The notes under the pieces are model-generated. The model saw only the letters and a list, made by a program, of their open reading frames with translations. It did no database searches and had not been told where the DNA came from. From positions 6,701,001-6,765,000 of the forward strand of contig NC_134679.1 in assembly GCF_024713945.1 (NCBI RefSeq): DNA of 64,000 nt. The letters run 5' to 3'. Shown here piece by piece: positions 15,842 to 47,684 of the stretch (positions within the stretch are counted from its first letter, which is position 1; each line of letters begins with the position of its first letter). The position numbers were made by a program, and so were the translations under genes. This DNA is from Dermatophagoides farinae. Taxonomy: Eukaryota > Arthropoda > Arachnida > Sarcoptiformes > Pyroglyphidae.

Positions 15842-16029
15842 AGGAATGGCAGGTCGAAATGTAGCCGGCTTTTCATATGCTTCAAACCATTCACATCGTA
15901 ATCGTTTAGCCTCATCATATGCTTCAATAATATCAGTACCATATTGTATGACGATTGTATTTTCGAAATATTTTCCTTGTAAATCTGGTTTCTGGATTTG
16001 CATTATCGTTATGTATCGTTTTTTCTGGT
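15842..16029 (-). pseudogene. Orphan exon for the N-terminal half of a ZP domain
   Basis: A 188-nt minus-strand exon bounded by a clean acceptor (TTTTCCAG) and donor (GTAAGTG). It encodes GKYFENTIVIQYGTDII and EAYDEAKRLRCEWFEAYEKP, the highly conserved N-half of ZP domains of the arthropod cuticle/apical-matrix family (Y-x-E-N-T-[IL]-[IV]-[IV]-Q, then R-L-R-C-x-W). No exon for the rest of the domain is seen just downstream; the C-half exon at 1-987 is of the same family and strand but lies 15 kb away across five other genes. It may be a detached exon at the edge of the transposon island, or part of one gene with a giant intron and nested genes. The coding frame itself is intact. Confidence 0.6.
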
Positions 16030-16661
16030 CTGGAAAATTTTTTTTTTGACTTATCGAATTACTGAATTTTTAAAATTTGTAAATAAAGACAAAAATTATT
16101 TTTTTTTTACTTTTTTCGTTTTTATTTATTTTTTTAAAATATAAATTAATTTCGATGTGAGTTGAGTTTATTTTTTTCATTTCCAAATCATAACACAATG
16201 TATTAGGAAATTTAGAAAGTACTGTCGTTTTTTGTATATAACTTTTTGGAAATGCCGTCTCAAAAATTTGGTAAAGGTTTTGACATCATGTATGACCTCG
16301 ATTTATTCTTTGATAACCAGGCTTTAATTCAAAAATAAATTTTTTCCAACTTTGGCTACCGGAAGTGCTAGCCAGCCTCTGGAATTCGACCCATTAAAAA
16401 TCAAAATTTTAGCCATTTTGATTTTTTGCTCGTGGTGACCCCGACGAAAGAGGTAATGGTCATCTGACCACTCAATGAAAATTCCACATGTCCTGGGAGT
16501 TGAAAAAAATTATGAGCGGAATTCTTCCGCAACTCATTTTTTCTAGAGGGCGGGTCAAAATCCGGTCGGCCGCTATCAGCCACTGTGTTATTCCGCCATA
16601 GGAAAAATTTAATGAAAGAAAAAACAACAAAAAAATAAGCAAAAAAAAAAAACAAAAAAAA

Positions 16662-17160
16662 ATGATGAATACAACAAAAGAAGAAATTTGCCAAAATTGG
16701 CCAAGTGAAATTCACATTCGTCACCTGATGCTTTATTGGTACAAAATGGGCATCAGTGCAACTAGAGCTGCTGTTGAAACCAACGAAGCTTACGAAAACG
16801 CTGTGAGTACCCGTACTGTTCAACGGTGGTTTCAGCGATTTCAAGAGGGCGATTTTAACTTGGAGGATCGACCGAGGTCTGGCTGACCTCAACAGATTGA
16901 TGAAGATAAATTGCTGGAATTGGTGGAAACAAACCCGAGACACACCATCAGTGAATTATTAGAAATTCTCAATTGTTCCAGTGCGACAGTTTTTAATCAT
17001 CTTCATTCATTGGGGAAGAAAAGCAGAATGGGTAGTTGGACGCCCCACAATTTGTCCGAAGTCAACCTTGGACAACGTGTAATGATTTGCACTTCATTGT
17101 TGCTGAAACATAGAGTTGATCCGTTTTTCAACCGAATGATAACTGGTGACGAAAAGTCGG
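16662..17160 (+). pseudogene. Mariner-family transposase remnant
   Basis: The frame starting at 16662 encodes the paired helix-turn-helix region typical of mariner transposases: IRHLMLYWYKMGISATRAA, then STRTVQRWFQRFQEGD and LEDRPRSG. It is broken by an in-frame TGA at 16884-16886, continues as ELVETNPRHTISELLEILNC, then TPHNLSE and MITGDEK. The last is the start of the catalytic domain (first Asp), but the usual Trp and everything after it are lost. The second and third catalytic acids are absent, so it cannot encode an active enzyme. Terminal inverted repeats were not identified. Confidence 0.85.
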
Positions 17161-17699
17161 GTCATTGTCGTAATGGAAAAAGGGCTGGTCTTTCTGGTCA
17201 ATTGCCAATTTGAATCGCTCCAGTTGTTGGCAAGACTTCCGCTGTTATCGTTTGGCTCGACTCAAGAAGCTCATGGTGAACCAATAACAATACTTTCTTC
17301 TGGTGAAGCTTTGGCCTGGGCGTCGGAACTGGTGGCTGTCCTGGGGTTAGCCATTGCTGGTGACATTATCGTAAAGAATCTGATAAATTCATGATCAATA
17401 ATCGAATGACAAACACACAAACCTTTAGCGGAGCTCGATTATTACGAGAATCATCCATTATATGGGAAAGATTTTCTTTTATTCTCACTGATTGTTTGAT
17501 AATTGATTATGTGTTATTTTTTTCAGATTGATGATGATGAAATCAAAAAAAAATGAACAAAGAAAATATTCAGTGGAAAAGAAGTCGCCACTGTGCGTAT
17601 AAAAGAAACCACAAATTAAGTGGAAATAAATCATGGCAATAAAAAATTTCATCAGTATCCTTTTTCTCTAGAATCAGTCACTCTCACCCCTGTGCCGCT

Positions 17700-18728: not shown

Positions 18729-18843
18729 CCCGAAAACAAAAACCCCGAAAACCGAAACACCGAAACCAAATGACCAAAAACAAAAACCCCGAAAACCGAA
18801 ACACCGAAACCAAATGACCGAAAACAAAAACCCCGAAAAAAAA
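18729..18843. repeat. 44-bp tandem repeat, about 2.6 copies
   Basis: The unit contains CCCCGAAAACCGAAACACCG followed by AAACCAAATGACC and repeats with few differences. It is C- and A-rich on the plus strand, unlike its surroundings. Confidence 0.85.
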
Positions 18844-19009
18844 TTTAGCCAACTGCTTTCGTGTTTTTGCTGAGCCACACTGTTGCTGTGATTCGACCTT
18901 GAACATAACGCACATTTCTTGTTTCTGTTGTCCTGCTGTGATGGTGTCGATACGATGAGCGTTGTTGTTGTTGGTTTACTCGTTTTGCCTCAAGAGTTTG
19001 AAGTTGAGT

Positions 19010-19143
19010 CATTTTGTTGATTATTATCACGCATGATTTGCAGAATTTTGTTCTTGAATACTCGGTTTATATTCTTTGTCCAATGTTTGGTTGTTGTGGA
19101 TAGGTCCAAATGTGATATTCAGAGCGTTGATAATGTTTTGGAT
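19010..19143 (+). repeat. Left part of repeat copy B, split by Copia insertion
   Basis: Matches 22728-22875 closely: GTTGATTATTATCACGC, TTTGTCCAATGTTTGG and TTGTGGATAGGTCC are shared. The match stops exactly at TGGAT, the target duplication of the Copia element, and resumes at 20901. Confidence 0.9.
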
Positions 19144-19255
19144 TGAGAAAAATAAAATAAAGCAGTTAGTTTATTGTGGTTTTTTAAAAATTTCATATAT
19201 AGAATTAATATTCTATTGTTATAAGTAATAATATAGTAATTAATTATTTACAACA
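19144..19255 (-). repeat. 3' LTR of the Copia element
   Basis: On the minus strand it begins TGTTGTAAATAATTAAT and ends TTTTTCTCA, and directly follows the polypurine tract. Its first bases recur at the far end (20884-20900), identifying the truncated 5' LTR. Confidence 0.8.
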
Positions 19256-20890
19256 TCCCCCCCAAAATTAAAGACGTCTTTGATGATAATTTCTTTAGTT
19301 TTTTGTTTAAATGGTTTTGTAAGAAAATCACTCAGCTGTTTTTCACCAGGAATATATACAATTTTACATTCATTTCGATTTAAATTATCTAGAACATATT
19401 CTCTTCTAATATCTATATGTTTAGAATGTCTTTGTGGTCCATCTTTAAAAATTTTCATTGCAGACTGATTATCAGTTTTAATTACAAAACATGGTCTTTT
19501 GAACTCTATATCATTGATTAATCTGCTTATCCATAAACATTCAGCTACACCTAATGATATGGCATAATATTCTGCTTCAGCTGTTGAAATAGATACTGAT
19601 TTTTGTTTTTTACTCATCCAGCCAATTGTTGAACCATAGTATTTTATTAAAACACCACTAATTGATTTTCTTCCAGGTGTTGTTCCAAAATCAGAATCAG
19701 TAAATACAGTAAGATGTTCATCATTAAAATGACCAAGATTTAAAGAAACATTCAATGATCCCTTTAAATAACGAATAATATTTTTTGCACAATTCCAAAT
19801 ATGTTTTGTTGGTTCATGCATTTTTGAAGACAAAATATTTACACTAGCTGCTATGTCTGGTCTTGATCTATTAGCAATATATTGAAGACAACCAATAATT
19901 TTTTGAGTTGATTCTATATCATATAAGTCACTCTTGACATTAACATTGAAATCACCCAAAGGAATCTTTACATCTCTTGAATCCTTCAAATCATATGTTT
20001 TGATCAACTCTTCTATATATCCTTTTTGACTTATTTGAAAAATATTTTTTTCCTTTCGTATTTCCAAACCACAAAAATTCTTAACATTGCCTAAATTCTT
20101 GATTTCAATATGTTTTGACAACAAATTTACTATATTTTCGATTTCACAATCTTCTTTTGTGCATAATAAGATATCATCTACATACACTACGATGATAACT
20201 TTCTTACTTGAATGTATAAACAAACATTTATCATTCAAACTTCTGATAAAACCAACATCTTGAAGAATACTGTTTAATTTTTCAAACCAACATCTTGGAG
20301 ATTGTTTCAAACCATATAAACTTTTTTTCAATTTCCAAATTATATTTTCTTTCTTATGTCTTTTAGGTGGTTCAACATATATATCTTCTTTTAAATCTCC
20401 ATTTAAAAAAGCTGTTTTAACATCTAAATGCGTTACAGCCAAATTATTAATAGCTGCATATGTTAAAACTATTCGTATTGTAGTAAAATTTGTAACAGGA
20501 GAATAAATATCATGATAATCAATGTCTTTAACTTGACTGAAACCTTGACAAATTAAACGAGCTTTAAAACGATCTATATTGCCTTTTTCATCTGATTTAA
20601 TTGTAAAGATATAGCGACTACCAACTATATTCTTAACATTTTCTTTTGATCTTTCTACTTCTTCAAAAACACCATGTTTTAAAATTGAATTGAATTCTTC
20701 ATTTATTGCAAGATTCCAAAGAGACGATTCTTTTGACTTCATAGCTTCATCATATGTTTTTGGTATTATCACTTGATCTTTTAATAATAAACCAGCTTGA
20801 AATCTTTCAGGCGGAATACCAAAATTTGATCTGTTAGAACGACGTAATCCTGTAACATGATTATCTTCTTCATTTTCTTCTTCATTAATT
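19240..20890 (-). CDS. Copia reverse transcriptase-RNase H (5'-truncated pol)
   Basis: An open minus-strand frame of about 550 codons. Order: a short acidic linker, then the Copia RT (WNLAINEEFNSILKHGVFEE, KARLICQGFSQVKDIDY, THLDVKTAFLNGDL, SLYGLKQSPRCW), the catalytic YVDD motif (VYVDDILLC), then RNase H (TDSDFGTTPGRKSISGVLI, STAEAEYYAISLGVAECLW, IKTDNQSAMKIFKDGP). It ends GGDVVNN, a few codons inside the 3' LTR, which is usual for this group. RT and RNase H are uninterrupted, but integrase and gag are deleted, so it is at most a non-autonomous source. The first in-frame ATG-like start is unclear; the frame is open to the truncated LTR. Confidence 0.93.
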
Positions 20891-20900
20891 ATTTACAACA

Positions 20901-21330
20901 TGGATACTGTTGCAAATAGATAGATTATGCTTTATTCTCATTATTATTATTCAAATACACAATAAGCAAAGGATATGGATAAGTTCATCAATGAAATTGG
21001 TTTCCATGTTTTTCCTACAGATTGCCTGCCTTATTTTTGTCTATCAAAGATTCACTAATTTTTTCTAATTTTAAATTTTACAAACGAACCACCAGTCCAA
21101 AACACATTCCCTTGATAATTCATTTTTTTCTCATATGAATAAATGATACATTTGATTTTTATTTTTCTTCAAAAACTTTGACTTTGACTTTTATTTGACA
21201 GGAAATTTGAAGAAGAAAAAACTCGATTGAAAAATAACAAAGAAAATTTTAATGATAAGAAAAATATTGATTGAAAATACAAATGGTGTGTGTGTGTGCA
21301 ACAAGTGTGTGTGGTATATTCACAATGTAA
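20901..21330 (+). repeat. Right part of repeat copy B
   Basis: Continues the match to 22870-23255: ACTGTTGCAAATAGATAG, AAATACACAATAAGCAAAGG, CATCAATGAAATTGGTTTCC and GTGTGCAACAAGTGTGTGTG. It decays after about 21320. Confidence 0.88.
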
Positions 21331-22072
21331 AATAAGTCAATGAAATCGATCAATAACATTCAGATTATTCTATGTGTGTCTCGGAAATTCAATGACAATA
21401 TGGTTTTTTTCCTAGATGATGATAATGACAATGCGGCAATTTTTTTTGTGTGTGTATCAAGTACGGAAACGGAATTTTTTGCTTTGTTTTGTCAACATTA
21501 ACAACAACAACAAGAATAACTGGAGCAACAAAATACTGAGACGATACTCGAAAGAATCGAGTCATTGAGACTAAAAAAAAATTTCCACACACTACATGCA
21601 TTGAGACAAATTTTTAATTTTCTTTTCTTAGATTTCGTGATTCAAGAAAATCTGAAAAACAACCAAATAAAAAAAACTACAACAAAACTATTATATGGTA
21701 TGAGACATGTCTCTCTGCGTGTGTTTTGATTCAATATTTTGGAATCAACCAAAAAAAAAAAACCAAACGACCAGTGAAAACGACAACAGCAGCAGAGATT
21801 TTTTCATCGTTCATTTTTTTCACTTTTTTCTTCTGTTTGTTTTTTTATAAGATTAAGAAAAAACGAAAGCAATAAAAAAAATTCTTCTTTTTCCTTGGAT
21901 TAATTACCCCTTTTTTCTCTTATCTCGAAAATTGTGATTAGTGTGTTTTTCTTCACTTTCTTTCCGAAACAAAATAAAACGAAATGACTATGTTTACTGT
22001 TTTTTTCCCTCCCCAACCTTTTTGCGACGAAAAAACATGTATCTGAAAAACATGTTTCTTTTGTTTGAAAAA
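21331..22072. other. Non-coding sequence with an extra arm copy at 21880-21950
   Basis: T/A runs predominate. 21880-21950 (TTGGATTAATTACCCC and following bases) duplicates the outer arm of the inverted-repeat element. 21610-21695 is similar to 25350-25420. No gene is supported. Confidence 0.5.
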
Positions 22073-23475
22073 AAAATTCTTGTTTTTCTAGGGATTAATT
22101 ACCCCTTTTTTTCTCTTATCTCGAAAACAGTGATTAGTGTGTGTGCGTGTGTGTTGGTTTTAATAACCTTTCACGAGAAAAAACAAACAAACAAACGAAC
22201 GAGCAAAAAACACAAAAATGACTTTTTTTTCTTTTGTTTTTTGTTTACGACAATGAAGAAAAAATATTCGAAAAAATTGAAACAAAAAAAAAAATTTTTC
22301 ATTATCACACACACTTGTTGCACACACACTCAATATATTTTTCTTATCACTAAAATTTTTTTCGTTATTTTTCAATCGAGTTCTTTCTTATTAATTAGTT
22401 GACCAACAAAGTTTTTCTTCTCAACCGTTGCACGAACGTTAATATATTTCTATTTTTCTTATGTAAAAATAAAAATTGCAAACAATCATTTTATTCAAAA
22501 AATATAATAATCGATAATTGCATTTATTGAAATGACAAAATCTGATACAATTAGTAAAGACAATTTTCATTTATATATATAAAAATCTACGATGTTCCAT
22601 AACATCGTAATGATTATCACATCGATAATACGTTCGCAGTCATGATTGGGAATTGAACACTATTGAAATATTTGTGGATAAAATAAAGCTTTATTGATCA
22701 AGTATACGCAGATCATAAAGCCATTTTGTTGATTATTATCACGCTAAATAAACGGCATGATTTGCAGAATTTTGTTCTTGAATACTCGGTTTATACATTT
22801 TTTGTCCAATGTTTGGTTGTTGTGGATAGGTCCAAATGTGATATTAAGAGCGTTAATAATGTTTTGGATACTGTTGCAAACAGATAGATTATGCTTTATT
22901 CTCATTATTATTATTCAAATACACAATAAGCAAAGGATATGGATAAGTTCATCAATGAAATTGGTTTCCATGTTTTTCCTACAAATTGCCTGCCTTATTT
23001 TTGTCTATCAAAGATTCACTAATTTTTTCTTAATTTCTACAAACGAACCACACATTCCCTTGATAATTCATTTTTTTCTCATATAAATAAATGATACATT
23101 TGATTTTTATTTTTCTTCGAAAACTTTGACTTTGACTTTTATTTTGCTGTGTGTGGACAGGAAATTTGAAGAAGAAAAAACTCGATTGAAAAATAACGAA
23201 AAAAATTTTAGTGATAAGAAAAATATATTGAGTGTGTGTGCAACAAGTGTGTGTGATAATGAAAAAATTTTTTTTTGTTGTTTCAATTTTTTCGAATATT
23301 TTTTTTCATTGTCGTAAACAACAAACAAAAAAAAGTCATCTTTGTGTTTTTTGCTCGTTCGTTCGTTTGTTTGTTTTTTCTCGTGAAAGGTTATTAAAAC
23401 CAATACACACACGAATTAATGTCATCAAGATAAGGAAAAAAGAGGGGTAATTAATCCAAAGAAAAAGAAGAATTT
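22073..23475. mobile_element. Foldback/TIR DNA element with arms of roughly 300 bp
   Basis: Left arm 22073-22392 and right arm 23165-23475 are reverse complements over most of their length. Shared landmarks are GGATTAATTACCCC, GGTTTTAATAACCTTTCACG, the AACGAACGAGCAAAAAACAC block, ACACTTGTTGCACACACACT and TTTTTCAATCGAGTTC. About 770 bp lies between them with no transposase. Partial copies of the interior occur at 1110-1400, at 19010-19143 plus 20901-21330, and arm-like pieces at 21880 and 25310. This is the pattern of a non-autonomous inverted-repeat (foldback or long-TIR) family. The target duplication was not resolved. Confidence 0.8.
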
Positions 23476-23853
23476 TGTTTTTTAATTAACCGCCAAAACT
23501 CTCCAATTCTATTGGTTAATGCTCTGTACACCACTTTTATTTTCTGGAAACTTTTCTACTATTTCAAGCAAGGACAAGCTGGGCCTGATACATGAGTAGC
23601 GAAACAAGCTGAACACATGGCCCACGTGAAAGACAGATTGAGCTGGTTATCAACGTGAGGCGTGGTTTCAACCGATTGGCAGTTTGACTGTCCAAGAAAT
23701 CATATAAATTTCCAAGACAACGACACAATCATCACCATTATTGTCGTTTTTTTGATTGTTGTTCGTCATCGTCATTATTGTTTTCAACATTTTATACTTT
23801 TTTTTTGTTTACATTTAATTTTTGTCACATAACATACATATATTGGTTCTACT
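23476..23853 (+). promoter_or_regulatory. Upstream region of the topoisomerase II copy with three CCAAT boxes
   Basis: CCAAT at 23503 and ATTGG (inverted CCAAT) at 23511 and 23675 lie 180-350 bp upstream of the ATG. CCAAT boxes bound by NF-Y are a known feature of vertebrate topoisomerase II promoters; relevance here is inference. Their presence suggests the copy brought its own promoter. Confidence 0.35.
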
Positions 23854-25143
23854 ATGGATAAGCAAAAAGTGACAAAGGTTTGTTTTGTTTGTATAACTTG
23901 AATAATTTTTCTATATTCAAATTTTTTTTTTTACATTTGATAGCAAATGTGGGTCTGGGATGGTGATCAAGAAAAAATGGTATACCGTGAAATTACATAT
24001 GCTCCATTATTGTATAAAATATTTGATGAAATACTTGTCAATGCTGCCGATAATAAACAGAGAGATGAATCAATGGATTGTATACGAATAGATATTGATG
24101 TGTAAGTGTCATATGATTATGTCTTGTATATTGATTGATTTAAATTGATTTTGTTTGTTTTTTTTCTATATATATACTACGGTAGCGATCGCAACGAAAT
24201 AACCATTTATAATAATGGTAAAGGAATTCCTGTGTTTGAACATGAAACGGAAGAATGCTATGTACCAACATTGATATTCGATACTGTATTGACACCATCA
24301 AATTGTTATGATGACGAAGAGAAAAAACTGGTCGGTGGTCGTAATGGTTTTAAAGCCAAACACTGTAACACTTTCAGTACGAAATTCAAAGTACAAACTT
24401 CAAGCAAAGAATATCAAAAATTATTTTCACAAATTTGGAAAAAAAATATGACGAAGATAAAGGATCCTAAAATCGGTGCGAATGCAGCTGAAGATTTTAC
24501 CCGTATATCATTTAAACCTGATTTATCGCAATTTAAAATGAATCGTCTTGATAAAGATATTGTGGCATTATTCTCACGACGAGCATACGATATTGCCGGT
24601 ACAACGCGTGATGTAAATGTATATCTTAATGGAAAAAAATTACCCATCAGCGGTTTCAAAGATTATGTCAAACTTTTTGTCAAAGATCGTCAAGATGAAA
24701 TTGGTAATGATATCAAAGTTGTCCATCAAAAAGTCAATGATCGATGGGAAATTGCTGCCACCGTTAGCAATAATGGATTCCAACAAATCAGTTTTGTTAA
24801 TGGCATTGCAACCACTCGTGGCGGTAAACATGTTGATCATTTAACCGATCAAATTGTCAATAAAGTGGCCGAAGTTATTAAAACGGAAAATCAAGTTGGC
24901 ATCAATGTGGAACCATCACAAATACGTAATCATCTTTGGGTGTTTGTCAATTGTTGGATTGAAAATCCTAAATTTGATTCGCCAAAAAATGAAACAATGA
25001 CATTAAAGGTGGAACGTTTCGGTTCTACCTGTTCACCAAGTACCAATTTCGTACACAAAATTTATAAAGTTGGTATCGCTGAAGCTGTGTTATCAAAAGA
25101 ATTATCGAAAACTGGTAGCATTCAACAAACTGGTCGATTATGA
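23854..25143 (+). pseudogene. TOP2: DNA topoisomerase II, ATPase-region copy lacking TOPRIM and cleavage core
   Basis: Exons 23854-23877, 23944-24101 and 24186-25143 join in phase (379 residues). The GHKL ATPase is clear: YKIFDEILVNAADNKQRD, YNNGKGIPVFEHETEECYVP, DLSQFKMNRLDKDIVALFSR, RAYDIAGTTRDVNVYLNGK, FQQISFVNGIATTRGGKHVD. The glycine-rich ATP-lid loop normally GRNGYGAK reads GRNGFKAK, so a key glycine is lost. The frame stops at SKTGSIQQTGRL, where the family normally continues for over 1000 residues. Just past the stop, another frame reads DYDNSSSDEEY and ends, resembling the acidic tail of topoisomerase II. This points to an internal deletion joining the ATPase region to the far C-terminus. 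Introns are retained, so it is not a retrocopy. A full TOP2 must exist elsewhere. Confidence 0.85.
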
Positions 25144-25309
25144 TAATTCATCATCAGATGAAGAATATTAAACCAATAATTATCATCGATCTCAATCATC
25201 ATATTCTCTTATGTACGCAGATTTGTTTACAACTTATATTTGATTAATGAAAGACACACTCACACACTTTTTGTATATTAATCAATGTATATTTTTTTAT
25301 CAACATAAT

Positions 25310-25849: not shown

Positions 25850-26285
25850 ACGGCCTATGGGAGAGAGGGTTTTTTCAAAGCTTCTAAAACCATGTTTTTT
25901 GTCGGAATCAGGCGAAAATATTTCGCCAGTGCATAGCGAAAGAGTTGCTGCTTCGAACAAAATAAGTTTCAACTTCCGGCTATCATTTTTGAGAGTAGAA
26001 GTGGGGTGTCAAAGTTTATGTAGGGAAAATTTTTGCCCCTCTAGACTGTAATTCCATCTGGCGGATTAATAAATCCCTGAGGTCGGCAAAAATGTATGGA
26101 CACCATAATGTGTATTGCAATCATACTTAACATCAATTTTGACAATTTTGCATTTGTTTTGAAAATCTTGCTCTAAGATCTAGAAAAAATTATGGCTTAT
26201 TTTGTGCCATTTTTACATCGAGAAAATGGCAAATTTCCAACCTAACACGACCAGTTCAGAATTCAAAATTCAAAATTCAAAATGC
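25850..26285. repeat. 5' non-coding part of the Tc1-like element
   Basis: Reappears inverted at 42670-43040 over about 370 bp (shared: ACTTTGACACCCCAC in one orientation, CAATTTTGACAATTTTGC, GGGATTTATTAATC) and in part at 33335-33375. The 26230-26265 end carries one unit of the 42-bp satellite directly before repeated AATTCAAA units. Confidence 0.8.
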
Positions 26286-26289
26286 CATC

Positions 26290-26870
26290 AAACCACCAGG
26301 TCGGCCTGGTCCAACAGAGCAAACATTGAGAAGACTTGATCGTCAAATTGAAAAAACACCGACGACAACAGGCAAAGAATTGGCGAATCATCTTGATGTG
26401 TCGAGAAATACGATACAGAAATACACCAAGATGGCCGAATATAACGTCAGAATAGCAAGAAAAAAACCACTTTTATCCAAGAAAAACATAAACAAGCGTC
26501 GTAAATGGGCCAATAAAATGGCTGAAATGCCTCTTGATTATTGGAAAAAAGTAATTTTTTCCGACGAAAGTCGATTTTCTCAGTTTAGCGATGCTTATCG
26601 CACATTCGTGTATCGCAAGAAGAATCAGGCATACCAAGCCAAGAGGCTCCGAGCCACGGTTAAGCACAACGGTTTCAGTGTGATGGTTTGGGGGGCCATA
26701 TGGTAAGATTTTTTTTTTAGAATGTTTTAATAATTATTTCTTAGCAATAGGCATGGTGGGAGATCAGAGTTGAGACTGTGCTTCAATAGTGTGAATTGTG
26801 AAGAATATATCGATATTCTTAAAACCACACTATCCCCCATTTTCCGTAATAAAAAAAAATAAAGTTGGAC
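26290..26870 (+). pseudogene. Tc1-like transposase, truncated
   Basis: The frame from about 26326 encodes a HTH (TTGKELANHLDVSRNTIQKY), then WANKMAEMPLDYWKKVIFSD with IFSDESRF (first catalytic Asp) and the Tc1 motif VKHNGFSVMVWGAIW. It stops at 26704, but homology resumes in another frame near 26745-26860 (EEYIDILKTTLSPIF). The second Asp and final Glu/Asp are absent. The sequence after 26870 is unrelated. The element is dead, truncated inside the catalytic core. Confidence 0.88.
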
Positions 26871-26879: not shown

Positions 26880-27270
26880 CAACTGACATCACAATCGTGA
26901 TTAAAGTCCATTTAATAATGTCAAAGTCATTATTATCATGACAATTGTTTTTTTGGTCGAGCATGCGTTTTGGCAGACCATGGGCAATCATCGTGGTTTC
27001 GAGTGAACAACACGTTAGCATATCATTTTTATCATCATTCCTATTATCATCGTGATGTTGTTATGTTTACGTTTTCTAATGAATTATTTTCTTTATTAAA
27101 TTATACTAAATAAAATCAAAGTTTATTTCAAACCGGCCAGTGATAAGAAGTTTTTTGTCTATTTCGTTATCAGCACCAATGGCAACGACATTGGCTACCG
27201 AATAATTTACGTCAACGGTCAATTTACGATTCACGAAGCACGAAATTTATGATATTTACGAATATTCACG
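26880..27270 (+). other. Possible LTR/leader of a BEL/Pao element
   Basis: Non-coding sequence with an AATAAA near 27110 and a leader just before the Gag start at 27271. This is the expected location of a 5' LTR and primer-binding site. No second LTR copy was found in the window, so the call is positional. Confidence 0.3.
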
Positions 27271-31934: not shown

Positions 31935-32017
31935 GTTAATATATAAACATTCCGGCCATATATAGATTTTAATGACAAAAATTTTCGTGGTATTCACATA
32001 ATGGTTATTGTCCTCGT

Positions 32018-34550: not shown

Positions 34551-34954
34551 TTGTCATCCATGTTTCTAAATTGAATATAAAAAAAAATCATTTGAGTAAA
34601 AATAAAAGAGATAAATTTAATTGATTAGTTTTTAAAATTCAAAAAAATACTTGTTATGCATAGCTTTCTTCAGCTACGGAAACGGATACTTACTTTGAAA
34701 GTAGACGATTATAACCAACCAGCAAAAACAAACTTAAAAATTTTTAATTAATAGTAACACAACTAACAAGCTTCAATATATATATATTCAACAATTCAAT
34801 CATTAACATAATGAATGAATTGAAAGCTATTATTATTATAAAAGCTATTATTATTAACATAACTTGTTGTTAAAATAACAATGATGACGATGATGATCAA
34901 TCAGCAAAAATAATCGAGAATAATGGTAATAAAACTATTAAACAATATGATAGT
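34551..34954. other. Flank of BEL element, possible 5' LTR remnant
   Basis: AT-rich sequence with duplicated AAAGCTATTATTATT units near 34825-34860. A 5' LTR or primer-binding site would be expected, but no match to the 3' flank at 38192-38540 was evident by eye. Confidence 0.3.
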
Positions 34955-36550: not shown

Positions 36551-36554
36551 CTCA

Positions 36555-36803
36555 TCTTTTTTTTCTTCTTTATTTGATCCTTTAGGTCTTTTAACACCAT
36601 TTCAATTGAGCTTCAGAGAATTTATACGAGATCTACATTTATCAAAAATCAATTGGGATGAGCCATTAAATCAATCTTTCATATTACGAGCAGAAAAGTT
36701 GGCGAAACAAATGGACGATTTAAAACGTGTTCATCTTCCACGAGTTGGTACTTACGTACTTTACCCACCGCAGACTGGTTTGTTTGAGTTTTGTTTAAAA
36801 TAA
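36555..36803 (+). pseudogene. BEL/Pao RT-RNase H connector remnant
   Basis: SSLFDPLGLLTPFQLSFREF and LHLSKINWDEPL are the signature of the Pao-type segment just after RT (FDPLGLLxP). The YVDD-bearing palm is not present upstream, so about 300 residues are deleted at the junction. The frame ends at 36803 before RNase H. Confidence 0.85.
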
Positions 36804-36847
36804 AGACTGTTTTGATTCAAAATGTGTTTAGTGTAATTTAGTTTAGT

Positions 36848-36870
36848 TTAGGTTAGGTTAGGTTAGGTTA
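36848..36870 (+). repeat. Interstitial telomere-like (TTAGG)n, about 4.6 units
   Basis: TTAGGTTAGGTTAGGTTAGG followed by TTA lies between the RT remnant and the integrase of the BEL element. TTAGG is the arthropod telomere repeat. The array is short but perfect. Confidence 0.7.
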
Positions 36871-36940
36871 ATTTTTCCTAAGGCTTATAAATATAAAAAA
36901 AAATAAAATAATAGAATTATAGAAAATTAAGACTGTTAAC

Positions 36941-38191
36941 ATGGAAATTTATTGGTTTGCAAGTTTGTTGTTTACAGATTTTTTACCAAAAACATCAGTT
37001 TTATTTAAATGGCCAGTTTTTGTTGATGATAATGGTTTATTACGTTTCAAAAGAAGGATAGAAAATTGCCAATTATCATTTAATGAAAAATTTCCAATTA
37101 TTCTCATCGACAAAACAATTGTTAGAGATATGTTAAAAGAAATTCACATTAATCTTTTCCATGGTGGAATTTTTCGAACGATAGAAGAAATTAAGAAAAA
37201 TTTTTATATTCCAAAGTTATATTTTTTGGTAAAAAATTTAATCGCACATTGTCAAAAATGTCAAAGATTTAAGGGAAAGGCTTATGGTTTTGAGTCACCA
37301 CCATTGCCTAAAGCAAGAATGTTAATACCAAAAAGAGCGTTTTGTAACATCGGTATCGACTTGTTCATTAATAGAGAAATGAAAGAAATGAAAATCTTTT
37401 CTATGATTTTTGTTTGTGCAAACTCAAGAGCTGTCCATCTTGATGTTGTGCAAAATAAAGGAATAGAATCTGTATTCCAATGCCTAACCAGATTCATAAG
37501 TTTATATGGTTTACCAGAAAAAATTTGGTCCGACAACGAAAAAAGTTTTTCAACAAGCAAGAAAATTCTATTGAAATTTATTTTCGCCAAAAAGAAAGTA
37601 CAACAAAATTATAATGTAAATTGGGAATTTAATCCACCAGCAGCACCATGGTACGGTGGTTTTTATGAGAGATTAATTCGTTCGGTAAAAGAAAGTTTAT
37701 CAGTTGTGGTGGTCAAGAAACATTCTCAAGAAAGTTTCAGAACACTTTTGACGGAAATCCAAGGAGTAATAAATGATAGACCATTATTCAGAAGTTCAGA
37801 TGGTACATTCGTTACACCATACCATTTGATTTTCGGAAATAAACGTTCGACATTATTTTCATCAGTCAGTATTGTCGATTCTGAGCATGATAGATTATCA
37901 TTGTTGTACGAAAAACTAGTTGGGAATATCAGAGAATTTTGGGAGACTTGGAGAAACAACTATCTCACCGAATTAAAAAATTTCGGATCAAAAAATGGAA
38001 TCACGCCACGAATTGGCGATTTAGCTTTTTTAAAAAATGATCAAAGGCGTCAGGATTGGCCGATAGTCGAAATTTTGGAGTTGAATAAAACTGGTAAAAC
38101 AGCAAAGATTTTGGATATCTCCAACGGGAAAACTTATTGTCGTTCAATTCGTTGCTTGGTTCCGTTGGAGGGGGACAATGTTATAAATTAA
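36941..38191 (+). CDS. BEL/Pao integrase
   Basis: A 416-codon open frame with an intact integrase. HHCC zinc-binding region: HINLFHGG and CQKCQRF. Catalytic core: first Asp in CNIGIDLF, second Asp in KIWSDNEKSF, and Glu in YGGFYERLIRSVKESL, preceded by NPPAAPWYGG typical of BEL/Pao. The C-terminal part contains VTPYHLIFGN and RIGDLAFLKNDQRRQDWPI, a DNA-binding tail. It ends within a G-rich polypurine-like tract (GGAGGGGGACAA) that normally precedes the 3' LTR. No internal stop, unlike most neighbours. Confidence 0.93.
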   Translation: MEIYWFASLLFTDFLPKTSVLFKWPVFVDDNGLLRFKRRIENCQLSFNEKFPIILIDKTIVRDMLKEIHINLFHGGIFRTIEEIKKNFYIPKLYFLVKNLIAHCQKCQRFKGKAYGFESPPLPKARMLIPKRAFCNIGIDLFINREMKEMKIFSMIFVCANSRAVHLDVVQNKGIESVFQCLTRFISLYGLPEKIWSDNEKSFSTSKKILLKFIFAKKKVQQNYNVNWEFNPPAAPWYGGFYERLIRSVKESLSVVVVKKHSQESFRTLLTEIQGVINDRPLFRSSDGTFVTPYHLIFGNKRSTLFSSVSIVDSEHDRLSLLYEKLVGNIREFWETWRNNYLTELKNFGSKNGITPRIGDLAFLKNDQRRQDWPIVEILELNKTGKTAKILDISNGKTYCRSIRCLVPLEGDNVIN

Positions 38192-38540
38192 ATTATTGAA
38201 TAATTGCATATATAAGCACAGTTATGCTAAGTCATAACACCAACTTTCTTATATTATTATTTTTTTTGATTATACTATTAAAATCTTTCTTTTATTTGTG
38301 CTAATCATTCCCGTTTCATAATAGCGTGTTAAAGAAATTTTACAATTATGCCATGATAAAATGAATCATATTGGTTGTTGGAATTGTTGAAAGAAAGATT
38401 GAATTACTGATTAATGTCACTGTTGAGCGTATTTGATTAGTACGATCAATGGTGAACTAGTTCTATAAATTAAGCATGTTTAGCAGTTATTTATAATTAA
38501 TAAAAACCATTTTAAAAGCCAAACTATTGAATCTTTATAA
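38175..38540 (+). other. Candidate 3' LTR of the BEL element
   Basis: A TG (TGTTATAAATTAAA) directly follows the polypurine-like tract; contents are AT-rich with TATA-like TGCATATATAAGC at about 38208 and AATAAAAACC at about 38500. The end is taken as the point where gypsy-like coding begins. No 5' copy was confirmed. Confidence 0.4.
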
Positions 38541-38549
38541 CTATTGAAT

Positions 38550-38835
38550 CATATACTTCAAAGCCTCTTGCATATTCCAATATTGGTCAACACAAATGTC
38601 TAGATATCGTATTTTGTCGTTTTTATTGGCCAAAATGGCGTAATGATGTTAAACAATGGATTCGTAAATGTGTCTGTAACGTTAAAAAAGATAATGATCC
38701 TCATCCTGCTAATCAACCTATGTCTGCAACTGATATTGTGAATCTCAATCCTTTTGAAAAAGTTGCAATCGATATCATGACATTATCATCATCTGAATCG
38801 GGCAATCGTTATATTTTTGTTCCAGTTGTGCGTTT
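38550..38835 (+). pseudogene. Ty3/gypsy-type integrase fragment
   Basis: A short open stretch encodes SNIGQHKCLDIVFCRFYWPK, MRNDVKQW-like WRNDVKQWIRKCVCNVKKDN and NPFEKVAIDIMTLSSSESGN, matching the zinc-binding domain (YWP...C..C) and first catalytic Asp (xxIDIxG) of gypsy integrases. It ends abruptly at about 38830 next to hAT sequence. Confidence 0.75.
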
Positions 38836-39119
38836 AAATTATATTTTTTTTAAATTGTGATCTAGTGATTTTCTTAAACCGTCGTCTTTGAAACTTCAGT
38901 GATTTGTTAAAAAATATAACCGTTTATTGTAAATAGATATATCGTTATTTTTGGGTAAATATTTTTACATATTATTTCAGATTTTATATTCTGCACATCG
39001 TTTGCAAGAACATGTTGCGTCACGACTGAACTTTTAACCTGTAACAAAATTAAAATTAAAATTACCTTGAATTAATTTATTATTTTCTTGTGTTGGTAAT
39101 ATTTTTAGTACTTTAATAT

Positions 39120-41143
39120 GTGACGAAATATGTTCTTGCAAACGAATGCAGAATAAATTTTTATAACAATATTATTGAAATAAATATATATTTTTTAGAA
39201 TTTCTTATCATGGCTAGTTCAATAAAAAAATCGAAATTATCCGAAACATGTTGTAGCAGAAAATTTCAAGCTTGGTGGACCGATAGATACGGTATGATTG
39301 AAAAGGACAATAAAGTAATTTGTGTTTTGTGTTGCACAACTTTAGTCTGTAGAACATCTTCAGTAAAGCGGCATTATGAAACCAACCATAAATTTCTTCT
39401 CGGTCGAAGTGTAGAAGAGCAAAAGGAGTATATATCACGTGCCTTAAAAAATAAAAATGCTCAAACTATTTCTTTAATGAAAGAAATAGAAAAAAACTAA
39501 AAACTAATAAAAACTAAAAGGGGAGTTTTTATTTATTTTATTATTATTTATTTCTTTATTGGAACTGAATCAAACACCACCGCTGCCAGTTGGCTTCAAT
39601 GTGCACCATACTTATTCGATGATTTTGAAATCAAAGAAAAAATTATCCAAAGAATCAAAGACATACCGATAGCTAGAAATACAGTCAAAGAGAGAATCTT
39701 GGATATGGCGGAAAATGTAGATTTTCAACAAAAAATTCATATAAAGTCTTGCGATTTTATATCCATTTGTCTTGACGAGTCTACCGACGTAACAGGCTCT
39801 TCTCGCTTAGCAATTTTTGTACGTTATTTCGTTCAAAACAATATTAAAGAAGAGTTGATAAGTTTATCAACATTAACAACAACAACAAAAGGAATCGACA
39901 TTTGTAACGCAGTTATAGATGCATTGGAAAAAAAGAAATATGTCCTTCTAAAATTGTGTCAGTTACAACTGACGGTGCCCGCAGCTTAACTGGACGGGAA
40001 AATGGGTTTATAAATTTATTTACAAAACGTATTGGACACCCAATTCTTTATTTTCATTGCATTATTCACCAACAAGCGTTATGTGCAAAAACCGGTTTAA
40101 AAATGTTTGAAGATATTTTGTGTTTTGTAACAAAATTGGTCAATTTTTTATCAGCACGAGCATTAAATAAAAGAAAATTTCAAGAATTGTTAAATGAAGT
40201 AAACTCGTCGTACAATAGTTTACTTTTATAAAATAATGTCCGCTGGTTAAGCCGCGGAAATGTTTTGCAAAGGTTTGTAGATTGTTTGGAGGAAATAAGA
40301 TTATTTCTGAATAATGAAAACATGATTGACCAATACAAACAATTATTGGATGTAGAATGGTTAGCAAAGTTATATTTTTTCACTGATTTATGTTCTCACT
40401 TGAATGAATTAAATATAAAATTACAAGGTAAATATAAAACTGTAATTATCATGTTTGACCTAATTAAATCTTTCGAAACCAAATTAAACATTTTTAATCG
40501 CGATATTTTTTCCAATTCTTATAAATATTTCCCAAATACCAAAAATTTTTTTTCAGAAAGTGAATGCCACGAAAAGCCAATTAAAGAGTCATTAACAAAA
40601 GAATTTTCAATGGTAATTCAATCCCTGATTCAGGAATTTTCTGCAAGATTTACGCAGTTTAAAGAATTTGAAGAAACATTAAAATTCATTTTATATCCTG
40701 ATACAATACCATTCGAAAAATTAAATTTAAAAGTCCTTGACTGGTTAAATTTTAATGAATTAGAAATGCAATTAGTTGAATTTCAATCAAGTACCATATG
40801 GAAACAAAAATTTGTTGATTTAAGAAATGATTTAGAAAATATTGAAAGTAATCGATTATTAGATCAAATAAATAAAATTGCGGAAGATGAAATTCTATCT
40901 ACATGGAATTCAATTCCTGACACGTTTAATTGTTTAAAAATATTAGCAAAGGCAATTTTGTCAATATTTTCATCGACGTGGGCATGTGAATCTTTATTTT
41001 CGGAATTAAATTTCATAAAAAATAAATATAGGAATAGAATGACGGATGAGTCTAGTTCGGCATGCGTTTTGTTGAAATTAACTAAATATGAACCAGATAT
41101 TAAATTGTTATCATCTGGAATACAAAAACAAAAATCACATTAA
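39120..41143 (+). pseudogene. hAT transposase with BED zinc finger, frame-disrupted
   Basis: Starting at ATG 39210: a BED-like finger (CVLCCTTLVC...HYETNHK). After a stop at 39498, homology continues in shifted frames as SWLQCAPYLFDDFEIKEKII, then ISICLDESTDVTGSSRLAIF (first catalytic Asp), a frameshift near 39955, VTTDGARSLTGRENGFINLF (second Asp), HCIIHQQALCAK, an in-frame TAA at 40229-40231, then VRWLSRGNVLQRF and a long intact C-terminal part ending with the dimerisation block ACESLFSELNFIKNKYRNRM. It belongs to the ZBED/SCAND3/GTF2IRD2-like hAT group. At least three lesions make it inactive. Terminal repeats were not resolved; 41997-42060 resembles a hAT end. Confidence 0.9.
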
Positions 41144-41219: not shown

Positions 41220-41339
41220 TCATCATCATCAATAATCAATCAACAAGTTGTATCATCAATAATCAATCAACAAGTTGTATCATCAATAATCAATCAACAA
41301 GTTGTATCATCAATAATCAATCAACAAGTTGTATCATCA

Positions 41340-41343
<4 letters not shown>
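41220..41343. repeat. 27-bp tandem repeat, four units
   Basis: Four near-identical units of ATCAATAATCAATCAACAAG plus TTGTATC lie directly before a CT microsatellite. Confidence 0.9.

Positions 41344-41424
<81 letters not shown>
41344..41424. repeat. (CT)n microsatellite, about 40 units
   Basis: An uninterrupted CT dinucleotide tract of about 80 bp. Likely length-variable. Confidence 0.98.
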
Positions 41425-41425: not shown

Positions 41426-41989
41426 GTGATAGAAATTCTAAAATTATTCATATTTACTTTCAAGGTAAGAATATGGTCATTGAGAGAGCGGAACATATGT
41501 TCTGTGTCTGTTGTGCTATTTATTCTATCCGATTTGTTTTTATGGTGATTTCGAATAAAATTCATTTGTTTTCTTATTTATAAATTGTGAATTATCGATA
41601 AAAACAATTAATATGAGCCTCAACGTAAGTCGTATTTTGTTCTTTTGCTGGTTGCTCATCAATATCTTCGTTGAAAATGATTTATTTTCAGAATTGCAAG
41701 AACAGAAGAGTACGAATCAATAAAAATTCTTGCAGATCGGTTTGTTCTTTTCGACCATAATGATGCCTGGAAAATTGCAAATAATTCCTGGAAAATCCAA
41801 CACGACCAGCCAATTTTGAACAGTCAGTATAAATATGAAAATCATGATTTTGGTTACGAACGTTATTTAAGAAGTTGAAAATACAAATGGGTGATGAAAT
41901 TGGTTAACAGGCAGCGTTAATTGAAATTTTAAATCTGATATAAATGACCAACATATAAGGAATGTTTGATCCGATGAATATTTGTAAGA

Positions 41990-42407: not shown

Positions 42408-42700
42408 AGTTTGGATTTGTCATTTTCTCGATTCTGAACTGGTCGTGTTAGGTTGGATTTGTCATTTTCTTGATTTTGAACTGATCGTGTTAGTTTGGAT
42501 TTGTTATTTTCTCGATTCTGAACTGGTTGTGTTAGTTTTGAAATTTGTCATTTCCACGATTCTGAACTGGTCGTGTTAGGTTGAATATTGGTCATTTTCT
42601 CGATTCTGAACTGGTCGTGTTAGGTTGGATATTGGTCATTTTCTCGATTCTGAACTGGTCGTGTTAGTTTGGACTTGTCATTTTCTCGATTTTGAATTTT
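42408..42700. repeat. 42-bp satellite array, inverted orientation
   Basis: Six to seven units containing TCATTTTCTCGATTCTGAAC and TGGTCGTGTTAGGTTGG. These are the reverse complement of the array at 32932-33240. Confidence 0.9.
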
Positions 42701-43040
42701 GAATTCTTACTTTACAACAAAAAATGGCACAAAATAAACCATATATTTTATTTATGTCTTAAAACAAGATTTAAAACAAATGCAAAATTGTCAAAATTGA
42801 TGTTAAGTATGATTGCACGACATTCGAAAATTGGTGTCTATACATTTTTGCTAATCTCAGGGATTTATTAATCTGCAAGATGGCAGTACAGTCGAGAGGG
42901 GCGAAAATTTCCCATACATAAACTTTGACACCCCACATCTACTCTCGAAAATGGTAGCCGGAAGTTGAAACTCAGATTGTTCAAAGAGCAACTCTTTCAC
43001 TATGCAATGGTAAAATATTTTCGCTTGATTCCGAAAAATC
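42670..43040. repeat. Inverted copy of the Tc1-like element 5' region
   Basis: Reverse complement of 25895-26270 with moderate divergence. It carries no transposase and is directly attached to the satellite array. Confidence 0.8.
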
Positions 43041-43080
43041 TAAAATCTAAAATTCTATAGTTGAAGTTAACAATGATTCA

Positions 43081-43494
43081 TTGATTGATTTGATTAGTGA
43101 AAATCAATCAGAAGTGGTGGATATCAATTCATTTGTAAAAGTTGGAGAAAAACAACAGGAAAAAGTAGATGAAAAAGTAAATGAAAAATCATATGATTTA
43201 ATCGGTGTACGGACGAATGACGTTATTGACAATAAATCTGGAGTTGTTACTGGGACAGGGGAGCATAATATGAATGATTGTGATGATCTAACTTGGGACT
43301 GTACTTCATTTGAATATTATCGTAATCGTTTTAAACGTCGCATGTTACAACAAATTGTTCTGAGTAACTTTTTTATCGTAAAAAGGATCGAATCATATAA
43401 ACTGGAAGCGGACTGGCTTACAAAATCCTTGGCACCAGATAAGCACGAAAATGTTCGAGATCATTATTGGCATAAGGGGAGTGTTGAAATGTAA
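43081..43494 (+). pseudogene. Copia-like pol C-terminal fragment (tentative)
   Basis: A 137-codon open frame. The end, KLEADWLTKSLAPDKHENVR, resembles the conserved AD-x-x-TK-x-L-x-x-x-K end of Copia RNase H; the N-terminal 100 residues are acidic and not recognised. It lies directly upstream of the helicase pseudogene. Confidence 0.35.
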
Positions 43495-43614: not shown

Positions 43615-46169
43615 ATGGATTTATTCGATGTTTTTGATTTGGATCAAAAATCCAATGATATTGAAAAAAGTAATGATAATGGTGAAAAAAAATTGATGAC
43701 CACCGACGAAGATGTTGACAACGGTTTGATCGACAAATCAATCAAAGATGTGAAACGTAACAAAGATAATGATGAAAATCTTCTAATCACTTCAATGATA
43801 GATGAATGGACCATAACACCTGATGATACAGATGATCATGATGATGAAAATTTGGGTCAGTATTATGCAAATTTTACTGCTCGTGTCGCAATTCATAAAC
43901 TGGAAACACAAGGATCGTGTGTACATGAAGTGGTCATTCATGACGATTTGGAATATGTGCCTCTTCGAGATCATAGTGGAAATCCTATTTATATGCCTGC
44001 TAAATCATATAAATTCCCATTGGATTCATTTCAAAAAGAAGCAATCCTTTGTATTGAAAATAATCAAAGCGTTTTGGTTTCGGCACATACTTCGGCTGGT
44101 AAAACGGTTGTTGCCGAATATGCCATTGCATCTTCATTGTGAAAACGAAAACGTGTTATCTACACAACACCAATCAAAGCATTGAGTAATCAAAAATATC
44201 GCGAATTTAAAGATGAATTTGAAGATGTAGGATTAATCACTGGCGATGTGACAATCAATCAGAATGCCACTTGTTTGATTATGACCACAGAAATTCTACG
44301 TTTAATGTTATTTCGTAGGAAGGAAATTATACGTCAAGTCGGATGGGTTATTTTCGATGAAATTCATTATATGCGTGACCGAGAACGTGGTGTTATCTGG
44401 GAAGAGACCATCATTCTTCTTCCCGACACTGTCCATTATGTTTTCCTATCCGCTACTATACCGAATGCAAGACAATTTGCCGAATGGATAGCTTATCTAC
44501 ATCATCAAAGTTGTCATATTGTCTATACAGATTTTCGTCCAACACCATTAAAACATTATATCTATCCAGCTGGTGGTGGTGGTGATGAACTTTATTTGGT
44601 ATTGGATGAACAAAATAATTTTAGTGAAGAAAATTTCAATACAGCCATGAATGTGTTGAAAAATTCATCATCCAAAGTTGTTGATCCGAGTTGTATCAAA
44701 ATTATCCCTATAATCATGAAACGAAATCTGGCACCAGTTATTCTATTTTGTTTTAGCCGTAAACAATGCGAACGTTATGCACTTGAAATTAGCATTCTTA
44801 ATCTGGATTATAATTCAGCCGAAGAAAAAACATTAGTCGAAGAAGTATTCAACAATGCAACCGATAAACTTAGTGATGAAGATAAAAAATTACCACAAGT
44901 ACAGCAAATATTACCACTTCTTAAACGTGGTGTTGGCATCCATCACAGTGGTCTTTTGCCATTGATCAAAGAAATGATTGAAATTTTATTCGGTAAAAGT
45001 CTTATTAAGGTATTGTTTGCCACTGAAACAATTGGCATGGGTTTGAATATGCCTGCTCGAACGGTTGTATTCACTAGTGTACGAAAATTTGATGGTAGAA
45101 ATTCGCGATTTCTAACTTCAAGTGAATACATTCAGATGAGTGGCCGTGCTGGTCGTCGTGGTTTCGATGAACGTGGTATAGTTATATGCCAAATTGATAA
45201 AAAAAATAGTCCAATTCTGGTTGAACAAATGATTTGTGGTAAACCGGAAACATTGAATTCAGCATTCCATTTAACATACAATATGGTTTTAAACCTATCG
45301 CGTGTTGAACAAGTGAATCCAGAATACATTCTCAAACATAGTTTTTTTTCAATTTCAACAATATCTGGAATATCATAAGCTCGATGAAAGTAAGTTTTAA
45401 TTGATTTTTGATATTTTTTAAATTATTTTAAAATTTTTTCAGATCTCTCTCATTATTATAAAGAATTTCTCAATATCGGCAAACAAATTGAATTTTTTGA
45501 GGAAGAACTTTGTCGTAATGAAAAAAAAAATAAAAACCATAAACATAATTCAACAATATAAACGAATTAAATTGGATATTGAAAATGAAATGAGACAAAC
45601 GAAAGAAATGATGAAAAAGATCACAAGTTCATCACTGATTGATGAATTGAAATGTCGTAAACGTGTACTACGTCGTTTAGATTATTGTACACCGGAAGAT
45701 GTCATCCTAATTAAAGGACGAGTTGCCTCTGAAATTACTGGGTTTGTATATGATTCTGTGATGATGTTTGTTTTTGAATTTGTTTTCCATTTCTTTTTTT
45801 TGTTACAGTGCTGATGAATTATTATTGACCGAAATGTTATTCGATGGATTTTTCAATGATTTAAATGTGTACCAGATTGCCGCATTATTAAGTTGTATGG
45901 TTTTCGAAGAGAAAACAGAAATTCTACCTAAATTGAGCGAAGAATTATCTAAACCATTGAAAACGATGCAAGAATTTGCGAAAAAAATTGCAACCGTCTC
46001 AAAGGAAACAAAATTAGAAATCGATGAAAAAGTTTATATAGAAAAATTTCGACCAAATCTTATGGATGTTATTTATTCATGGACAAAAGGAAAATCATTT
46101 TCAGAAATATCTAAAATGACCGATGCATTCGAAGGGTCAATAATACGTTGTATGCGACAAATATCTTAG
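43615..46169 (+). pseudogene. MTR4: MTR4 (SKIV2L2) exosome RNA helicase pseudogene
   Basis: Exons about 43615-45389, 45443-45741 and 45809-46169. The N-terminus starts MDLFDVFDL; the helicase core has [20 protein letters not shown] (Walker A), [34 protein letters not shown] (DEIH), [47 protein letters not shown] and [13 protein letters not shown]. Lesions: in-frame TGA at 44140-44142 (codon 176) just after motif I; a +1 slip in a T8 run near 45345; loss of most of the arch/KOW insert; and a stop after EGSIIRCMRQ that removes the last helical segment. The ratchet-helix part (DELKCRKRVLRRL, ADELLLTEMLFDGFFNDLN) is preserved. MTR4 normally feeds RNA to the nuclear exosome. Introns are kept, so this is a decayed segmental copy. 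Confidence 0.9.
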
Positions 46170-47434
46170 GTTTGGCTAAGAAGGATAAACGTATTATAAT
46201 GATGATGATGTGTTAGATGTGTTAGGTTGGATTTGCCATTTTATCGATTCCAAAATTTCTTTCGATTTTTCATCATACACAGTATCAAGTAATATATACC
46301 TGTCTGCATCAATTTTTATTTTTTTCTTGTTCGACAAATCAACAATTTTCGTCAATTCTTCATTTTATTAAATGATGGCCTCATTCAATTTATGTGTTTT
46401 CACAATTAAATCAGTATTCGAAAACGTATTATTTTTAATACCTTTGTGACATTCGGTAATTTTTTCCTTAATTTCGATTTAATGGTTTCTAGAAAATCCA
46501 ATCGTGTGATGATTTTTGCTTCTTGTTCAATATCATTATCAAGCCATTTTATTTATATATTATTGTCGCTGCAATTTTTTATTTTTTCATAATTTATTTT
46601 GACGATAATTATTTCAATGTTGAGATTTTCACGCAAACTTGATAATGTGGCTCTTTTATCAAATTATTCGACGTTACACACAACATTCACAAGTAAAATT
46701 ATCGTACTTTATTATTCTTTTTAGATTAGCTTTTATAATAAATTTGAAATTCATAATTTATTTTGTTTTCACAATCGTATGTTCAAATGCCACATTACCA
46801 TTTTAGTAATGTATCATTTGTTGTATTCATGATAGGATGTTTTTACATTTATTAAAATTTCCATATCGATGTTTTCTGATGTTTCTCACATCCTTTGATG
46901 ATTGGACCTTTAATGATTAATTTTGATATCCATTTTTGTGATTGTTATGATTTCCATAACATTTGTATTTCAATTAAATTTTACAACACTTATTAATATA
47001 TTTGTACCATTCAGAATGGACATTTAACTTTAGCTGTAGCTGGCAATTGATTTGTCATTCTCTCTATTTTGTTCGTTTCAGGTTGGATTTTTCTTTCTCT
47101 ACTTATGAACACCCGAGTTACGAATATTCAGACTTACTAACAAATGAATTCAAGTTCGTAATGAACCACATTTAAAACCGCAATCAATCACTTTTTAATT
47201 TATTAATTTTATTTTCATATAACAATGACAATTTTTTTTACCTGCGCCTTAATTTGTACACACTTAAAAAATTTTACTCCCTCTTACGTTATGCGTAAAA
47301 TTTTTTTTGGACAAGGGGCGACGAAATTTTTTTTTTTGCACAAGGGCGCCCAACAGCCACGGCTCGGCGCTGATGCTATTTATATAATCATATTGATATC
47401 TTCTTTATCTTTATCTTTATCTTTATTCATGTAG
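46170..47434. other. Non-coding with traces of repeats
   Basis: 46215-46255 has a degenerate 42-bp satellite unit (GTTAGGTTGGATTTGCC). 47300-47375 (AAGGGCGCCCAACAGCC, CACGGCTCGGCGCTG) is GC-rich and looks like a transposon terminus. The rest is AT-rich with no recognisable coding sequence. Confidence 0.4.
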
Positions 47435-47684
47435 CCCGGGCTCCAGGTTCTTCGGATGAAGAATCACCGAATTCATTGAAATTGAGTAACAATCGTTATT
47501 TAACCGTTTCGGAATTCAAGAATAAAGTTGATATACGTGTATATTATCGCAATGATGAAGATGGTGAACAAAAACCAGGAAAAAAGGCACCAGTTTATCG
47601 AAGGATGAATGGAAAAAAATTGTATCCAACATGGATATGATGAAAAAAAAGATTAAAAATCAAGGTGATTCAGATTCAGAATGA
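47435..47684 (+). pseudogene. SUB1: PC4/SUB1 transcriptional coactivator, 3' exon with frameshift
   Basis: After an acceptor (TTCATGTAG) the frame encodes APGSSDEESPNSL, then NNRYLTVSEFKNKVDIRVYY and GEQKPGKK, the single-stranded-DNA-binding fold of PC4. One A is missing from an A-run at about 47581, after which the correct homology (SLSKDEWKKIVSNMDMMKKK, ending SDSDSE-like GDSDSE) continues in the next frame to a stop at 47684. An AATAAA lies near 47758. The 5' exon(s) with the serine/lysine-rich domain are not seen. A single homopolymer slip could be a sequencing error, but the missing 5' exon argues for a fragment. Confidence 0.8.

Follow-up and report, generated by a model that had tools for sequence, protein, structure and literature searches.

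Close to 32,000 bases of the Dermatophagoides farinae genome, at positions 15,842–47,684 (~15.8 to 47.7 kb) of the 64,000 nt window of contig NC_134679.1 that we analyzed, are a real and unusual mosaic, of a general kind already known, of broken transposons and intron-bearing pieces of unrelated host genes. The pieces are a lone ZP exon, the ATPase part of topoisomerase II (TOP2), an Ig/FN3 part of Dscam, and an MTR4 and a PC4 3′ end, both damaged; between them lies debris of mariner, Copia, Tc1, BEL/Pao and hAT elements (Table 1). These pieces and the debris separating them had been recognized in a preliminary description of the sequence, and our searches bear out each identification; a sixth host gene, absent from it, lies at 1,314–4,109, and its last exon and 3′ UTR are represented in the island by two copies (A and B). 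Exons of the TOP2, Dscam and MTR4 pieces join in frame across GT-AG introns (53–84 nt), so these are not retrocopies, in agreement with that description. Splice sites also accompany the ZP and PC4 pieces, each a single exon, and the intron-bearing pieces were thus copied at the DNA level. We give a probability of about 0.5 to the reading that the island would be a transposon-dense refuge adjoining ordinary genes, that received pieces of six or more unrelated host genes at different times.

Table 1. Host-gene pieces, mobile elements and repeats, numbered from the first base of the window.
Feature	Position	Strand	Evidence
End of gene 1,314–4,109 (last exon, 3′ UTR), likely parent of copies A and B	1,067–1,400	−	Self-alignment
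Lone ZP-domain exon	15,842–16,029	−	188 nt, both splice sites; AG before, GTAAGT after
Mariner transposase remains, Mos1-type	16,602–17,390	+	HTH_48, E 3e-14; right end by eye
Copy A and unidentified upstream sequence	19,007–21,316	+	Split by Copia insertion
Copia remnant nested in copy A	19,144–20,900	−	RVT_2, E 2e-61; TGGAT on both sides
Long inverted repeat	22,068–23,481		Arms 22,068–22,392 and 23,169–23,481, 89%
Copy B	22,719–23,258	+	Self-alignment
TOP2 piece, three exons	23,833–25,170	+	TOP2 likeness 23,833–25,096
Tc1-type remnant	25,898–26,703	+	HTH_Tnp_Tc3_2, E 6e-13
Gag-like ORF, BEL/Pao type by eye	27,253–28,454	+	No Pfam match
hAT-like terminal sequence (TAGGGTTACCAG...)	28,455–28,540	+	No partner found
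Dscam piece, four exons	29,486–31,946	+	Ig domains, then FN3; 757 open codons
Non-autonomous hAT, 2.07 kb	32,018–34,085		12-bp ends CAGGGCCGGCCC, 8-bp target duplication GTCCTCGT
BEL/Pao remnant	34,874–38,188	+	Peptidase_A17, Integrase_H2C2; first ORF without Pfam match
Integrase_H2C2 fragment, gypsy-like by eye	38,531–38,857	+	Pfam
Broken hAT transposase	39,117–41,143	+	Dimer_Tnp_hAT
Tc1-type remnant with 42–44 bp minisatellite	42,408–43,038	−	Self-alignment
MTR4 copy	43,615–46,169	+	E 8e-185; DSHCT domain (Pfam)
PC4 3′ exon	47,434–47,684	+	Pfam PC4, E 8e-10; single exon with splice site

The GC content of the window averages ~31% (27–38% by 2-kb step), and mite assemblies have 30.4–30.6% GC according to PMC11074847. 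Pfam identified ordinary genes to the left of the island, for a PP2A scaffold subunit, an NKAP-like protein, TSC22 and a bHLH protein, and no match for the long ORFs submitted from its right side; there, two neighboring long ORFs without a Pfam match, of 628 and about 120 aa, occupy positions 55,365–57,579 (−). Our 50 ORF submissions to Pfam, a few ORFs being entered twice, cover part of the ORFs in the window, and both a tRNA scan (bacterial setting) and an Rfam scan were empty. Self-alignments of at least 45 bp (E up to 1e-4), counted without the pairs internal to the tandem array at 33.9–34.6 kb, lie within the island or connect it to 1,067–1,400; the sole exception is a MITE-like near-palindrome directly right of the island (48,521–48,638), 74% identical to its own reverse complement.

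Host-gene pieces of the island

The lone ZP exon gave E-values of 5e-9 and 2e-14 in tblastn searches against the window alone with ZP query sequences, on which its identity rests, and had no match in Pfam. A second ZP-like sequence, resembling a ZP-C last exon by a consensus sequence (Pfam ZP-C only E 0.69), is found on the same strand at 2–988, just downstream of gene 1,314–4,109, and is possibly another broken or split ZP gene. A single gene comprising both exons around nested genes was considered and dropped, as a motif search for a middle exon found none.

The TOP2 piece aligns with human TOP2A (E 4e-116, 56% identity), with the frame kept across the joins of its two introns. It starts just past a stop, at HTYIGST, and its likeness ends at EAVLS, after which another frame gives a short acidic tail and then a stop; the last about 75 nt may be the C-terminal tail of the parent, and the piece may be internally deleted, beyond the truncation of its ends. 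There are no stops and no frameshifts in 1,116 nt, yet the sequence differs from human at conserved sites; in the ATP-lid motif, GRNGYGAK is replaced by GRNGFKAK with loss of a glycine, a change expected to spoil ATP binding in GHKL enzymes. No TOPRIM or cleavage domain was found in the ORFs scanned.

The best PDB matches were to Dscam for both stretches of the Dscam piece that were tested. Three introns (69, 60 and 58 nt) interrupt the piece, which comprises one partial Ig domain followed by more Ig and then FN3 domains. By eye, its likeness to Dscam begins within an Ig domain, a few bases ahead of any splice site. It has no lesion in 2,271 nt and must therefore be very young or still constrained: with 4–5% of random substitutions creating a stop, and 0.15 to 0.3 indels assumed per substitution, a dead copy would be lesion-free with 5% probability at a divergence under about 0.5–0.8%, or of about 2.8% on its own branch if indels are ignored.

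All five fragments had been described as truncated, and the pieces are indeed partial, but the MTR4 copy keeps most of its length, from an ATG at 43,615 that resembles the start of MTR4 itself up to the DSHCT domain, lacking the C-terminal end. Its two introns (53 and 67 nt) join in frame. The copy is interrupted by an in-frame stop (TGA at 44,140) and, close to 45,341, by a frameshift in a run of T; the frame changes again around 45,520–45,550, where a region that we take to be the arch is missing. Matches to the human chain 6d6q_M extend to residue 595 and restart at 828, and the ~53 residues between them stand in place of 232, a loss of about 180. Conversely, 79 of the 81 helicase-core columns that are invariant in human MTR4 and 14 prokaryotic relatives (15 sequences) are kept, so the copy is not an old pseudogene. 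These 14 relatives, retrieved among 48 pattern matches in bacterial and archaeal genomes, are prokaryotic Ski2-like helicases with 39–43% identity, and none is from a eukaryote; viral contigs yielded 2, 15 and 9 pattern matches for TOP2, Copia and MTR4, respectively, and no relatives for any of them. Directly upstream of the MTR4 copy there is an ORF (43,051–43,491, +) without a Pfam match, whose end looks by eye like the C-terminus of a Copia RNase H.

The PC4 piece is two residues short in the motif KVLIDI compared to human, which could be a lineage difference, and has a frameshift in an A run, the alternative frame then giving SLSKDEW up to the stop. Errors in sequencing could account for the homopolymer frameshifts of both MTR4 and PC4. 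Next to PC4, a degenerate repeat unit (47,049–47,098) was not significant (E 1.5 and 7.4).

Mobile elements and the duplicated end of a neighboring gene

Among the elements in the island, a single hAT (32,018–34,085) has terminal repeats at its two ends together with a target duplication; it is inserted 72 bp right of the Dscam piece and encloses no host-gene piece. Two further hAT-like ends, at 28,456–28,469, within the TAGGGTTACCAG terminus that we take to be of hAT type, and at 47,357–47,372, have no partner in the window at up to 3 mismatches. The 42–44 bp minisatellite occurs at 32.9–33.3 and 42.4–42.7 kb, with single units at 26.2, 42.06 and 46.2 kb. Other tandem repeats are a 44-bp unit (18,733–18,839; 2.4 copies, 98% matches) and a perfect 27-bp unit (41,225–41,424; 4.5 copies, 100%) that leads into (TC)40 and looks recent. 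The ORF at 41,681–41,875 looked host-like and was discarded as a host gene, having no match in Pfam.

A search for intact parents had been proposed in the preliminary description, and the window contains a likely parent for one gene, the sixth. Positions 20,982–21,284 (copy A) and 22,946–23,223 (copy B) resemble the last exon and 3′ UTR of the neighboring gene 1,314–4,109, with 83% identity when gaps are counted. Ignoring gaps, and without the tail columns past the end of homology, which make UTR divergence look larger, the parent differs from copy A at 15/259 positions and from copy B at 13/254 (5–6%), and the copies differ from each other at 6/243. No difference in rate separates coding from UTR positions (Fisher p 0.40, 0.23 and 0.67), as dead copies would show, and an apparently slower change of the coding part was gone once the tail columns were dropped. 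Upstream, likeness to the parent ends at AGTTCATC, possibly a 3′ splice site in the parent; the copies then carry other sequence, and are therefore not spliced copies of the present gene. This multi-exon gene (−), with a hydrophobic tail at its end, belongs to no Pfam family and gave no convincing PDB match; its assignment as a calcium-channel alpha2delta subunit was rejected for want of any such match in Pfam or PDB.

Downstream, the copied segment runs into the end of a dispersed repeat, GAGTT(C/T)TTTCTT when read towards the gene (repeat ending GAGTTCTTTCTT). This end appears in five places in the window with three unrelated neighbors: three times it adjoins the 3′ UTR of the neighboring gene, once other sequence at 22,389 and once the sequence at 25,351, about 180 bp past the TOP2 piece. 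The repeat unit had no matches in viral contigs. Copy B sits between the arms of the long inverted repeat, of which about 55 bp are also present beside the parent gene, and the arms, rather than being the ends of a transposon, may have arisen by inverted duplication. The Copia remnant splits copy A and is absent from copy B, which orders the events as copying, then duplication into A and B, then Copia insertion into A. The direction of copying was probably from gene 1,314–4,109 to the island, although it is also conceivable that a repeat supplied the last exon of this gene.

Origin of the pieces

Several arrivals, rather than one event, are suggested by the unequal damage of the pieces: the Dscam piece is free of lesions, MTR4 has a stop, frame changes and a lost domain, and the 250 nt of PC4 include a frameshift. 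Constraint on Dscam or TOP2 would, however, look alike. A single capture mechanism finds no support. Since the MTR4, PC4 and TOP2 pieces are damaged, functional parents of these essential genes are to be expected elsewhere, and the same probably applies to the parents of the ZP and Dscam pieces. Break repair, one of the three mechanisms suggested in the preliminary description, is the most likely of them: breaks arising in or close to transposon sites, as may happen upon cut-and-paste excision, would have been repaired by copying unrelated template DNA (genomic DNA, not RNA), the pieces would have persisted since little in the island is under selection, and later transposons would have inserted into and between them. 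Repair of this kind fits because the pieces are partial genes with introns, have ends inside exons and are of mixed ages, with transposons close by; it predicts no particular end sequence. The island itself presumably lacks function.

The other two mechanisms, in which a DNA transposon (Pack-TYPE-like or hAT) or a Helitron captured the pieces and carried them to the island, appear unlikely. They would account for the repeat end that copies A and B abut and that is common to other places, and for the position of copy B between long inverted arms, a piece that may have a Pack-TYPE origin; also, most piece ends lie, by our own reading and without a control for the high density of elements, within about 0.6 kb of an element or repeat. 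However, part of those arms is also found beside the parent gene, the only paired hAT holds no piece and the two other hAT-like ends are partnerless. Likewise, no Rep/helicase domain appeared among the 50 ORF submissions to Pfam, although a non-autonomous Helitron would lack one anyway.

Somewhat less probable is that the island is a small-RNA master locus, with host-gene pieces that template siRNAs against their parents or simply ride along. D. farinae has no piRNAs and makes siRNAs from TE catalogues, with three TE-mosaic loci, spanning 62 kb, that have homology to 70% of TE-mapped small RNAs, as given by Mondal et al. (2018, PMC5805368). The island, too, combines different TE families, identified by Pfam as mariner, Copia, Tc1, BEL/Pao and hAT, and contains long inverted repeats. 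Such a TE-dense island would be unusual in this genome, because classified DNA transposons make up 0.09% of it (PMC11074847). The same orientation is shared by 13 of the 16 elements and pieces tallied (binomial p 0.02), but this tally is post hoc, omits unclassified ORFs, enters copies A and B separately and uses some labels assigned by eye. Against a master locus, the accessible part of PMC5805368 does not mention host-gene pieces for the D. farinae loci, and in a search of titles and beginnings of abstracts, covering part of the literature, no paper turned up on host-gene pieces in such mite loci. More doubtful still would be the fuller scenario, in which the siRNA transposon-catalogue locus of a piRNA-less animal took in intron-bearing pieces of essential genes and could make small RNAs against self, similar to the gene pieces captured by Pack-MULEs and Helitrons in maize.

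We consider it improbable, to nearly the same degree, that the pieces are parts of real genes, either exons between transposon-filled introns or truncated working paralogues, above all for Dscam and TOP2. Both are open, Dscam for 757 codons and TOP2 through three exons, splice sites are intact, and Dscam genes are expanded in chelicerates. Conversely, no further Ig/FN3, TOPRIM or arch exons were found in the ORFs submitted to Pfam plus the best 75 stretches of a codon scan, which was rough (3 of 9 training stretches were dropped because they held stops as cut), and a motif search found no further ZP exon; any of these scans could miss short exons. Additionally, MTR4 and PC4 are broken, and the likeness to Dscam starts, by eye, inside an Ig domain. 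An assembly artefact joining unrelated contigs or haplotypes is very improbable: repeats are the usual cause of misjoins and there are perfect tandem arrays at 41,225–41,424, but exact target duplications flank two insertions and the nesting of copies A and B is orderly, features that a misjoin would not produce; this evidence is silent on the other junctions.

Relation to known systems

As the siRNA master loci of D. farinae (PMC5805368), the island is a mosaic of several TE families over tens of kb; it differs in its host-gene pieces, which go unmentioned in the available part of that paper. In maize, gene pieces captured by Helitrons, Pack-MULEs and Sirevirus elements are siRNA reservoirs against their donors, according to a review (PMC13317346). 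The island shares with such Pack-TYPE/Pack-MULE and plant Helitron capture, as presented there, the proximity of host-gene pieces to transposon ends, whereas here no element with paired ends encloses a piece, barring the ambiguous repeat around copy B.

If the parents are confirmed, the island would be a compact natural record of the movement of unrelated gene pieces in a small animal genome, in which one window shows one likely donor, two copies and one later insertion. If the locus makes siRNAs, it would exemplify transposon surveillance that comes at a cost, the uptake of self genes by the surveilling locus.

Mosaic segmental duplications, such as pericentromeric duplicons, and templated insertions at repaired breaks are known systems. 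The island resembles them in having intron-bearing partial copies of unrelated genes, of differing ages, amid repeats; it differs from them in that its pieces adjoin ordinary genes and the genome is probably compact, and a likely parent is seen for only one of the six genes.
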